From contig NZ_CP072827.1 in NCBI RefSeq assembly GCF_017916255.1, positions 7,279,501 to 7,343,500 on the forward strand: a DNA stretch of 64,000 nucleotides, written 5' to 3'. A model generated the notes under the pieces. It did no database searches and was not told the DNA's origin. It worked only from the letters and a program-made list of their open reading frames with translations. This stretch comes from Streptomyces mobaraensis NBRC 13819 = DSM 40847 (GTDB lineage Bacteria; Actinomycetota; Actinomycetes; Streptomycetales; Streptomycetaceae). Positions 17,729 to 21,538 of this stretch are shown piece after piece. The position numbers and the translations under genes are program-made. The first letter of the stretch is position 1. The number at the start of each line of letters is the position of its first letter.

Positions 17729-19930
17729 TCAGCGCGACGCCCCCCAGGGGACGGCGGGCGCGAACGCGGACGGCTCCGCCGCCGGAAGGAAACGGAAGTT
17801 CCGCTCCAGGTCCTCCTGGCGGTACCGCCGGCACCCCCGGTGCCAGTTGAGGATCCCCGCCAGCCAGTTCTCCAGCTCCTTCACATAGCCCTCCAGCGCC
17901 GCCCGCGCCACCGGCCCCAGCCCGGCGTCCTCGTACAGCACCGGCAACTCGTGCATGGCCACGTGCCGGAACTGGCTCATCCGGCCGCGCATCAGATCGT
18001 CGACGATGGCGAGCGCCGCCCGCCGGTCGCAGCCGAAGAACGTCTGCACCACCAGGACGGCGTTGTGCACCTCACCCTCGTACTCGATCTCCTTCTGGTA
18101 CGAGAACACGTCGTTGAGCAGCGTCGCGTAGTCGATCGCCGCGTTCTCCAGGGAGCGGACGGTGCCGCTGCGGTAGACCTCGTCCGGCACCGCGCGCCCG
18201 TGCCCGACGCGGCAGAGCGCGATGGTGAGGTCGGAGCCGAAGGTGGCGCGGCGCATCTCGATGTAGTCGACGGGCTCCGGGACCCGGTGCTCGGCCTGGT
18301 TCTGCAGCTCCCACAGCCAGCTCTCGAGCATCACCTCGACGGCGTCCCGCAGTTGGGAGCGGCCCGCGGCGTCCATCGGCCCGGCGGTACGCTCCCACAG
18401 GTCGGCGAGGCCGCGCTCCAGGGCGGTCGGCGGTACGGGCGCGGGCGCCCCCGCCGGGTCGAGCGGCATCAGGGTGAGCAGCCGGGCGTGGGCCAGCTTG
18501 GCGCCGGCCAGGTCGCGGGGCCGGCCGTAGACCACGGGGTAGTAGTCGTCGCCGTAGGTGCCCCAGGTCAGCCACTGCGAGGCCAGGTCGAGTTCCTCGG
18601 GGGTGGCGTCCGGGTGGAGGCCCGCGGCGCACAGCGGGAAGTCGTACCCGTACAGCTTGCGCTCGTCCCAGATGTACGAGGTCGGCACCCCCGGCTGCGG
18701 GGCGAGCATGCCCATCTCCCGGGCCCACGCGACGGTGTTCGGCCGGGAGCGTTCCAGGTGCGGGTTCAGCCGCAGGGTGAACGGGACGTCGAAGTCAGGG
18801 AGTTCGGACGGGCCGACGTGCTGGTGCGGAACGTGGGTGAGGGAGCGGAGGCGCTGGGCGCCGGTCGCCGCGAAGAGGTGCCTGAGGTCGAGGCCGGACG
18901 TGCCCGGGCCGGTGGGACCGGGCAGCCCGATCGGGGCCGCCTCCTTGTTCATGTAGCGGCTGGAGCGCATGTGCCACTCGTGGCCGCCGGCCTGCCAGTC
19001 CTGCAGGCCCTTGGCGTAGGCGAGCACCGCCCGGCAGTCGTCCGGGCCGAGCGCGTGGTCGACGAAGAGCTGCGGCAGTTCGGTGACGACCGTGTGCTCG
19101 AACTGCTGCATCCGGGACGTCAGCAGGTTGTTGACGGACTCGGCGGCCTCCTGCGTCCCGCAGTCGAGGAAGGTCTCCAACACCAGGATGCCGTTGGAGA
19201 GTTCGCCCTCGTCCTCGACCTCGCGCTGGTACGAGAAGATGTCGTTGCGCAGGTGCACCGCGTCGGCGAACGTGTCGGACAGCACCCGCATCGGGCGCGT
19301 GCCGGCCACGGACGCCGGCACCTCGGCGCCGGCCGCGTACTCCACCAGCCCGGCCGACCAGGGCGCGCCGCCCACCTTGCGGCGCATCTCGATGTACTCG
19401 ACCGGGTTGGCGATCCTGCCCTCGTTGATGTTGGACAGTTCCCAGAGGGACTCGTCGAGCAGGTTCCGGGTGCTCTCCGCGAACCGGACCCGCCAGTCCG
19501 CGGACATGTGCGGGACCGTGCGCGCCCACAGGTCCGCCAGGCCCGCCTCCACCGGATGCGTCGGCTCGGGCACGGCGGCACCGGGGTCCATGGGCATGAA
19601 CGCCGGGAGGCGGTCCAGGTAGGCGCGGCCGCCCTCGCGGTCCTGCGTCCGCTTGAACAGCTCCAGGAAGTGGTCGTCGAAGAAGAACACCCACACGTAC
19701 CAGTCGGTGACCAGGGACAGCGCCGGGCCGTCGCAGTCGGGGTGCGTGTAGGCGCAGAGCAGGGCGTAGTCGTGCGCGTCGAGGTCCGCCTGGTCCCACA
19801 CGCCCGACCCTTCCAGCATGCCCATCCCGCGGGCCCACTCCCGTGCGTGGGCGCGTGCCTCCTCCAGGTGGGGGTTGAGCCGGGCGGGGTGGTTCATGTA
19901 GAAGGCGGGCAGGGTGAAGGGCTGGGTCAC
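17729..19930 (-). CDS. geoA: geosmin synthase-type two-domain terpene cyclase
   Basis: 733 residues, the usual length of bifunctional germacradienol/geosmin synthases. The N-terminal cyclase has the metal motif DDHFLE in [13 protein letters not shown] (about 86-92) and the NSE-type motif NDIFSYQRE (about 229). The C-terminal half carries TYGDDYYP and NDVFSYQKE, as in the germacradienol-cleaving domain. Conserved linkers such as SSRYMNKE and TGPGTSG match the family. Farnesyl diphosphate to germacradienol and geosmin is the expected chemistry. GTG 19930 (VTQPF) follows GAGGAG; the frame is open 42 codons further upstream but that part looks non-coding. It is preceded 198 bp upstream by a Family 2B encapsulin gene, so it may be shell cargo. 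Some sequence drift leaves the exact product unproven. Confidence 0.88.
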
Positions 19931-20128
19931 TGCGAGACTCCTCGTCCGGTCCGCGCCGTGGCGGCGGCCGGCGCGTTCCTGATGCCGACGGGCCGGGCGG
20001 CCGTCGGCGACTCCTCGGCCGGAGCGGCGGCGCGCGGTCCGGCGCGGCACCGGCACGTCACCGGGCGGTGCCCGGGGGTTGCCGCCGGCCCCGGACCCCC
20101 GTCGGGGCCGGGGCCGGGGCGGGGTCGG

Positions 20129-21538
20129 TCAGCGCCACCGGCCGATCTCGACGTTCTCCAGCACCCCGAGCGCGTCCGGCACCAGCACGGCCGCCGAGTA
20201 GTACGCCGTCACCAGGTACGACATGACCGCCTGCTCGTTGATGCCCATGAACCGCACCGACAGGCTCGGCTCGATCTCGTCCGGGATCCCCGCCTGCCGC
20301 AGCCCGATCACGCCCTGCTCGGCCTCGCCGGTACGCATGCAGATGATCGAGGTCGTCCGCGCCTCGGTGACCGGGATCTTGTTGCACGGGAAGATCGGCA
20401 CCCCGCGCCAGGTCGGGATGCGGTGGCCGCCCATGTCGATCGTCTCGGGCACCAGCCCGCGCTTGTTGAACTCGCGCCCGATCGCCGCGATGGCCCGCGG
20501 GTGGGCCAGGAACAGCTTCGAGCCCCGGCGGCGGCTGAGCAGTTCGTCCAGGTCGTCCGGGCTGGGGACGCCGTCGTGCGGCTGGAGCCGCTGGTCGTAC
20601 TCGCAGTTGTTGAGGAGGCCGAACTCCCGGTTGTTGATGAGCTCGTGCTCCTGGCGCTCCTTGAGCGCCTCGACCGTGAGCCGGAGCTGCTGCTCCATCT
20701 GGTTCATCGGGTGGTTGTACAGGTCGGCGACGCGGGTGTGGACGCGCAGGATCGTCTGCGCCACGCTCAGCTCGTACTCGCGCGGGCGCTCCTCGTAGTC
20801 GACGAACGTCGCCGGGATGTCGGCCTCGCCGTGGTGGCCGGCGCGGAGTTCGATCTCCTTCTCGCCGTACGGGTTGGTCCGCTGGGCCGGCAGCGAGCGC
20901 ACCCGCTCGACGTGGCCGCGGAGCGAGTCCGAGCGCTCCACCGCCTGGTCGAAGGCCAGCTTCGGCAGCACCAGGACCGTACAGGCGGTGGCGGCGCGGG
21001 CCGTGTACTCCCAGGTGCCGTCCGAGGTGAGCAGGGTGTCCCCGCCGAAGTGGTCGCCGTCCGCGAGCACACCGAGCACCGCGTCGTCCCCGTACGGGCC
21101 CTCGCCGACCTTCTCCACGCGGCCGTGCGCGAGCAGCACGACGCCGTCGATGGGCTGGCCCTTCGTCGCCAGGATGTCGCCCGGCGCGTACTCGCGCTGC
21201 TCGCAGCGGCGGGCGAGTTCGGTGAGCACCTCGGTGTCCTCGTACCCGTGCAGCGCCGCCAGTTCGCCGAGTTCGGCCGGGATGACCTCGACGCGGTCTC
21301 CCGTCTTGACGAACGTGACGCGGCCGTCGCCGACCGTGTAGGTGAGCCGCCGGTTCACCCGGTAGGTACCGCCCTGGATGTGGCTCCACGGCAGCATCTT
21401 CAGGAGCCACCGGGAGGTGATCTCCTGCATCTGGGGTTCGGACTTGGTGGTCGTCGCCAGATTCCGCGCCGCGGCCGTTCCGAGGCTCTGCTGCGGACGG
21501 TCCTGCTCTGCGGTGCGGTTCTCTTCGGCTACGGACAT
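20129..21538 (-). CDS. Family 2B encapsulin shell protein (HK97 fold with cyclic-nucleotide-binding insert)
   Basis: 469 residues, often annotated simply as a Crp/cyclic-nucleotide-binding protein. The N-terminal arm (about 1-60) includes [24 protein letters not shown], the opening of Family 2 shell proteins. A cNMP-binding beta-roll follows (about 95-225, with [20 protein letters not shown] and [10 protein letters not shown]), inserted as in 2B shells. The rest (about 235-469) is the HK97-type shell region: [38 protein letters not shown] and the C-terminal [20 protein letters not shown]. There is no DNA-binding HTH, so it is not a Crp regulator. Known 2B shells pair with 2-methylisoborneol synthase; here the partner is a geosmin-synthase-type cyclase. 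Confidence 0.9.

Follow-up and report, generated by a model that had tools for sequence, protein, structure and literature searches.

Does an encapsulin shell house the geosmin synthase encoded beside it? The window, i.e., the whole 64,000-nucleotide stretch of Streptomyces mobaraensis DNA analyzed here, raises this question by carrying a gene for a Family 2B shell and, downstream of it on the same strand, a gene for a two-domain geosmin synthase homologue, an arrangement whose coordinates and domains bear out the description given in an earlier note on this DNA (Table 1). The shell is a protein container of viral origin, and geosmin is the compound that gives soil its smell. As a kind, a 2B shell with a geosmin-synthase-like (GS-like) cyclase is already published, and NCBIfam has a model for the cargo. 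The pair is not new as a kind because it is preceded by the available part of PMC8346489, in which the terpene cyclase cargo of Family 2 is either 2-MIB-synthase-like or GS-like; by the NCBIfam model; and by the available part of a 2025 preprint (PMC12224551), which found encapsulins in all the geosmin clusters of Myxococcota that it studied. The novelty implied by the earlier note is thus lost, GS-like cyclases being one of the two published cyclase cargo groups of Family 2.

Organization of the Locus

Table 1. Features of the shell and synthase genes (positions are those of the window; residues are those of the encoded protein).
Feature	Position	Strand	Basis
Family 2B encapsulin shell gene, probably EshB-type, 469 aa	20129..21538	-	NCBIfam encap_f2b and place in the tree
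Shell N-arm motif SLGTAAAR, residues 18-25	21464..21487	-	invariant positions in 32 aligned shells
Inserted cNMP-binding fold, residues 115-202	20933..21196	-	Pfam PF00027, 60.1 bits
HK97-type (SrpI-like) domain, residues 217-467	20138..20890	-	Pfam PF19307, 451 bits
Hairpin predicted in the RNA just past the shell stop	20085..20117	-	folding energy of -55.5 kcal/mol (z -2.33) for 20050-20128
Synthase ribosome-binding site GAGGAG	19938..19943	-	sequence
Geosmin synthase homologue, 733 aa, two class I terpene cyclase domains	17729..19930	-	Pfam, PDB, model pLDDT 86.6
Predicted disordered inter-domain linker, residues 328-362	18845..18949	-	pLDDT <50
Putative cargo tag in the linker, residues 338-350	18881..18919	-	published consensus GPTGLGTSAAR
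Predicted disordered C-terminal tail, residues 716-733, without a second tag	17732..17785	-	pLDDT <50, tag scoring

The shell protein belongs to Family 2B, with an HK97-type domain that passes the NCBIfam model encap_f2b (765 bits against a cut-off of 400) and an inserted cyclic-nucleotide-binding-type fold, as the earlier note had read it and as PF19307 and PF00027 also indicate. Its own structure prediction is poor (pLDDT 64.8); its solved relatives are the 2B shells of S. griseus and S. lydicus. The two-component shell of S. lydicus (PDB 9bje, 9bix; PMC12407261) has the same N-arm motif and differs, in the available part of that study, in having two shell components and a xylulose-kinase system where the window has one shell gene. 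The suggestion that cAMP gates the shell was rejected on published work: the available part of PMC12407261 reports that the insertion domain of a characterized 2B shell binds no cyclic nucleotide. A role of the inserted domain as a cAMP switch is therefore not likely, while gating by a ligand other than cAMP is possible.

The synthase gene starts with GTG at 19930, and Pfam finds two Terpene_syn_C_2 (PF19086) stretches in its product, which on Pfam and model evidence has the two class I cyclase domains of a bifunctional geosmin synthase. Foldseek matches it to the N-terminal domain of the S. coelicolor geosmin synthase (5dz2) with 76% identity over 327 columns. Motifs that we take to be metal-binding are present in both domains and conserved across 32 aligned synthases. 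The S. coelicolor enzyme converts farnesyl diphosphate to germacradienol and then to geosmin, and the window synthase is predicted to yield geosmin as well. The model has only two longer stretches with pLDDT below 50, the linker and the C-terminal tail. Against NF041168, the NCBIfam model for GS-like encapsulin cargo, the synthase scores 1176.1 bits over profile positions 1-717 of 735 and does not reach the cut-off of 1200, which is passed in just 9 of 197 genomes of the class, many others falling below it too; against NF041167, the 2-MIB-synthase type, it scores 90.6 bits (cut-off 400) and is thus not of that type.

Forty-two in-frame codons upstream of the GTG had been put forward as a possible loading tail, an idea that we rejected: these codons precede the GAGGAG ribosome-binding site, residue 3 is where the match to the family profile sets in, and this same residue pairs with residue 4 of the S. 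coelicolor chain 5dw7 at the start of their alignment, so that both profile and chain begin at the GTG start. Starts in our synthase alignment were chosen by our own rule and hence give no evidence on the true start.

The two genes are 198 bp apart. The predicted hairpin behind the shell stop, at which no run of T was seen, may lower or block transit from the shell gene into the synthase gene by read-through. Non-ribosomal peptide synthetase domains (AMP-binding, condensation, carrier, and terminal reductase-like; 21906-28678, minus strand) begin directly upstream of the shell gene, and a sugar-type major facilitator transporter gene (13934-15700, minus strand) lies near the pair. No methyltransferase family was found among the nine window open reading frames covered by a non-exhaustive scan at 8.7-28.7 kb, in agreement with the reported absence of such a gene near the pair. 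Elsewhere in the window genome, G000:C1:6177431-6178610 (L004, L005, L009) holds pieces of a geosmin-synthase-like cyclase with 37-45% identity and internal stop codons.

Co-Occurrence and Linkage of Shell and Synthase

The two genes were followed in 197 genomes of the class, with a synthase match defined at E 1e-100 or better, and in 150 genomes of the genus, the window genome (G000) included. In the class survey, 39 of the 197 genomes have the synthase, 16 from the window's genus and 23 from others. A full-length 2B match accompanies it in 21 of these 23 (in two pieces in G313); G167 has a 2A-like match only, beside the synthase, and G243 a synthase without a shell match. The reverse, a full-length 2B shell without the synthase, was seen in G185 and G271, and 156 genomes have neither gene among the matches listed, a figure presuming that the rest include no further member of the genus. 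On this figure, and with genomes counted as independent, co-occurrence of synthase and 2B shell outside the genus has a Fisher p of 4e-23. The genes lie within 3 kb of each other in 20 of the 21 non-genus genomes having both; in G263 they are on different contigs, in G313 they are divergent, and in G203 the synthase match holds a stop. In one family, six genomes have a shell gene on each side of the synthase.

Within the genus, synthase and shell are each found in 147 of 150 genomes, and both in 146. G098 has shells without a synthase match, G101 a synthase piece without a shell, and G008 and G050 neither (Fisher p 8e-4, to which assembly gaps may add). Linkage is rare here: the synthase lies within 5 kb of a shell in 8 of 147 genomes, and contig breaks may hide a few. 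The main synthase copy is shell-linked in G000, G010 (divergent, with an incomplete synthase match covering residues 27-521), G043, G048 (with a 2-MIB-type cyclase between), and G085, and a second copy in G053, G133, and G088; in G004 and G097, synthase and shell are ~19 kb apart. Locus L239 (7345-12346, in G088) has two shell genes flanking a divergent geosmin-synthase-like cyclase of 50% identity with the tag GPTGLGTAAAR. Among the best 80 of at least 576 named synthase loci, mostly from Streptomyces and 64 of them with 4.5 kb on both sides, a shell stands beside the synthase in four, from three Nonomuraea and Streptomyces mesophilus; in the latter, the shell stop overlaps the likely TTG start of the synthase. 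The proposed check that the pair be conserved in relatives thus came out positive for other families of the class and negative for the genus, where pairing is rare.

No synteny with the usual shell or synthase loci was shared in a comparison of 7 shell and 13 synthase-bearing loci, and none was convincing at L218, L083, and L084. Linked genomes do not share the genes that surround the pair, so the linkage may be recent; two trees did not decide between linkage kept and linkage regained. Such rarity, together with flanks common to neither kind of usual locus, would fit a chance rearrangement that made neighbors of an EshB-type shell serving other cargo or none and a synthase free in the cytosol. 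We regard this as unlikely, however, given the linkage in nearly all genomes outside the genus that have both genes, the overlapping genes of S. mesophilus, and the tags that unlinked synthases keep (see below).

Type of the Shell

A quick tree built from 107 different shells puts the window shell in a clade with 46 members (SH-aLRT 100), namely 43 unlinked shells, at least 74% identical, and the window, S. mesophilus, and G010 shells; the linked shells of G043, G085, and G048 are placed outside it. Shells at least 70% identical to the window's occur in 118 of 150 genus genomes, including G010, G105, and G129. These three also have one shell match each and were left out of the single-shell set, which comprises 51 genomes in which a search at E 1e-60 matched a window-type shell and no other. 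A geosmin synthase is present in all 51. For the 2-MIB-synthase cargo family, 48 of them gave no match at E 1e-40, in a search that covered this class of cargo, as distinct from desulfurase, prenyltransferase, and kinase cargo, and that matched all seven multi-shell genomes used as positive controls; G022 has a match over the cut-off, and G061 and G090 have weaker ones. Seven unlinked loci had no convincing tagged gene within ~9 kb.

In the complete genomes G079, G139, and G117, the window-type shell lies 0.9-1.1 Mb from the synthase. The gene numbers SCO5249 (eshB) and SCO6073 presumably indicate a similar spacing from the geosmin synthase gene in S. coelicolor, and because of this distance of ~1 Mb the window shell type is probably EshB, an assignment by genomic place. 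EshB, encoded ~1 Mb away from geoA, agrees in position with the unlinked shells of the sample and is, like the window shell, a putative cyclic nucleotide-binding protein (available parts of PMC3878966 and PMC3610822). In the same sources, eshB is raised in development (PMC3878966), and in S. coelicolor both genes go up in the second mycelium (log2 2.2/1.2/0.3 for geoA and 2.9/3.2/2.4 for SCO5249; PMC3610822).

Putative Cargo Tag of the Synthase

For the GS-like group, Andreas and Giessen (2021; PMC8346489, available part) described a motif GPTGLGTSAAR between the cyclase domains and again at the C-terminus. The window locus resembles the GS-like cargo systems of PMC8346489 and NF041168 in having a shell gene beside a two-domain cyclase whose linker carries a putative GPTG tag, and departs from them in a degenerate tag end, an absent C-terminal tag, and a score just below the curated cut-off. 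The linker keeps the first part of the tag (GPTGPGTSG) but has GLDLR in place of AAR at the tag end, and the C-terminal copy is lost (tail score 6/11). Loading through the inter-domain linker, which the earlier note had considered, gains from this form of the published tag in a disordered linker.

The tag was scored, with a home-made threshold of at least 10/11, in 140 different synthases of more than 690 aa. In this pool, which leans to the window's close relatives, it is found in the linker only in 28, the tail only in 61, both in 45, and neither in 6. Its core is present in 46 of the 51 synthases from single-shell genomes (linker only 26, tail only 18, both 2), a count that includes a doubtful match in G093 (GAGTTLL), and absent from linker and tail in five, among which G014, G017, and G034 have a worn motif and G002 and G021 none. 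The core pattern has no match in 32,538 residues of cyclase domains. From the near either-or pattern, which follows large clades and treats synthases as independent, one tag per synthase, in linker or tail, is likely to suffice. Locus L116 (G263) encodes a 1001-aa geosmin synthase whose long tail at the C-terminus adds two GLGTSAAR tags to the one in the linker.

Taken together, we consider it probable that the synthase is the cargo of the adjacent 2B shell, likely held by its linker tag GPTGPGTSG, and that the EshB-type shell meets the synthase in trans in most sampled genomes of the genus. Housing in trans is predicted because this shell is the only shell match in the 51 genomes and 46 of their synthases have the tag core. 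Encapsulation is also favored by NF041168, which names the cyclase family as encapsulin cargo, and linker loading by a tag placed in one of the two stretches modeled as disordered; the joint rise of geoA and SCO5249 in the available part of PMC3610822 speaks for the pairing. We count against it the degenerate tag end, the lost tail tag and the missed cut-off, the hairpin between the genes, the assignment of the G043, G085, and G048 shells to different types and the incomplete synthase match of G010, and the five coreless synthases with the exceptions G098 and G101. For a synthase inside the shell, the expected route leads from farnesyl diphosphate through germacradienol to geosmin, and in most sampled genomes of the genus the EshB-type shell and a distant synthase would come together in trans. 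The genomic context thereby supports the compartmentalized geosmin pathway suggested at the outset.

The Second Shell and 2-MIB-Type Systems

The window genome has a second 2B shell, 1.18 Mb from the window pair, beside a 2-MIB-synthase-type cyclase (G000:C1:6118088-6121013; L229 7065-10044) that scores 523 bits with NF041167, so that a neighboring cyclase of this type is found at the second shell and not at the window pair. The cyclase carries two tags, GPTGLGTTALSLA and GPSGLGTAALSLA. In the tree, the second shell groups with 2-MIB-linked shells, and 10 of the 12 shells so labeled are placed in a different clade from the window shell; weak cyclase matches underlie the labels at L242 and L245 and, for G133, are the whole basis. 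In G048 (L244 6684-12792), a shell gene, a 2-MIB-type cyclase with the tag GPTGIGTAAAR, and a geosmin synthase stand in a row on one strand.

The S. griseus shell 9bhu, which we take to be a 2B shell with 2-MIB synthase, matches the window shell with 651 bits and shares its fold and inserted domain. Its cargo reportedly has a GPTG-type motif in an N-terminal tail, whereas the window cargo would be a geosmin synthase with the tag in the linker; the 2-MIB-type shell of the window genome is its second one. That both shells of this genome take either terpene cyclase, with no dedicated geosmin shell, is quite improbable: near-identical N-arms in both shells, GPTG- or GPSG-type tags in both cyclases, and the single shell gene beside both enzymes in G048 would allow it, but the separate clade of most 2-MIB-linked shells and the 48 of 51 window-type-only genomes with a synthase and no 2-MIB-type match speak against it. 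In the available part of PMC6428758, EshA is reported to be dispensable for making 2-MIB, and the product may therefore form whether or not a shell is there.

Resemblance of the Tag to the Shell Arm

The tag also resembles the N-terminal arm of the shell, in which S18, L19, T21, A23, A24, and R25 are invariant among 32 aligned shells. A profile of 36 different tail tags has the arm as its best match, in register, in 106 of 107 shells; when 2000 column-permuted profiles were run on eight of the shells, 1 reached an equal score. For the linker-tag profile, the figures are 105 of 107 shells and 8 of 2000. The reverse scan, with the arm profile on synthases, places 111 of 140 best matches in linker or tail, and permutations on a 40-synthase subset do equally well in 7 of 200 cases on place and 17 of 200 on score. 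It is weaker than the forward scan, since six other shell segments outscore the arm and the window's own synthase is unmatched.

A tentative idea, to which we give the smaller share of belief, is loading by mimicry: the synthase tag GLGTSAAR may copy the shell arm SLGT[AS]AAR and replace one subunit's arm on its neighbor. Shells with unordered arms would then offer vacant arm sites, one mimic per synthase would be enough, and through the same tag EshB-type shells would take up geosmin synthase in trans across the genus. In the available part of PMC12407261, the S. lydicus arms are ordered in Enc1 and unresolved in Enc2, and the authors favor a luminal A-domain loop as the cargo site. Unassigned density near the threefold axis of a Family 2A shell, read as a cargo site in the available part of PMC8049743, speaks against an arm site. 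No published likeness of tag and arm was found among titles and abstract openings, a scope that excludes the 2024 paper on the 2-MIB shell.

Implications

Should the tag mimic the arm, Family 2B would gain a loading rule of help in sequence-based prediction of cargo. Independently of how loading occurs, the window holds one of few loci in the genus where an EshB-type shell and the synthase are neighbors, and this pair suggests which partner a widespread shell probably has. If geosmin synthase is what the EshB-type shell contains, there would be a function for a shell that 118 of 150 genomes carry, and two genes ~1 Mb apart in model species would become a testable pair, with a synthase present in 147 of 150 genomes of the genus.
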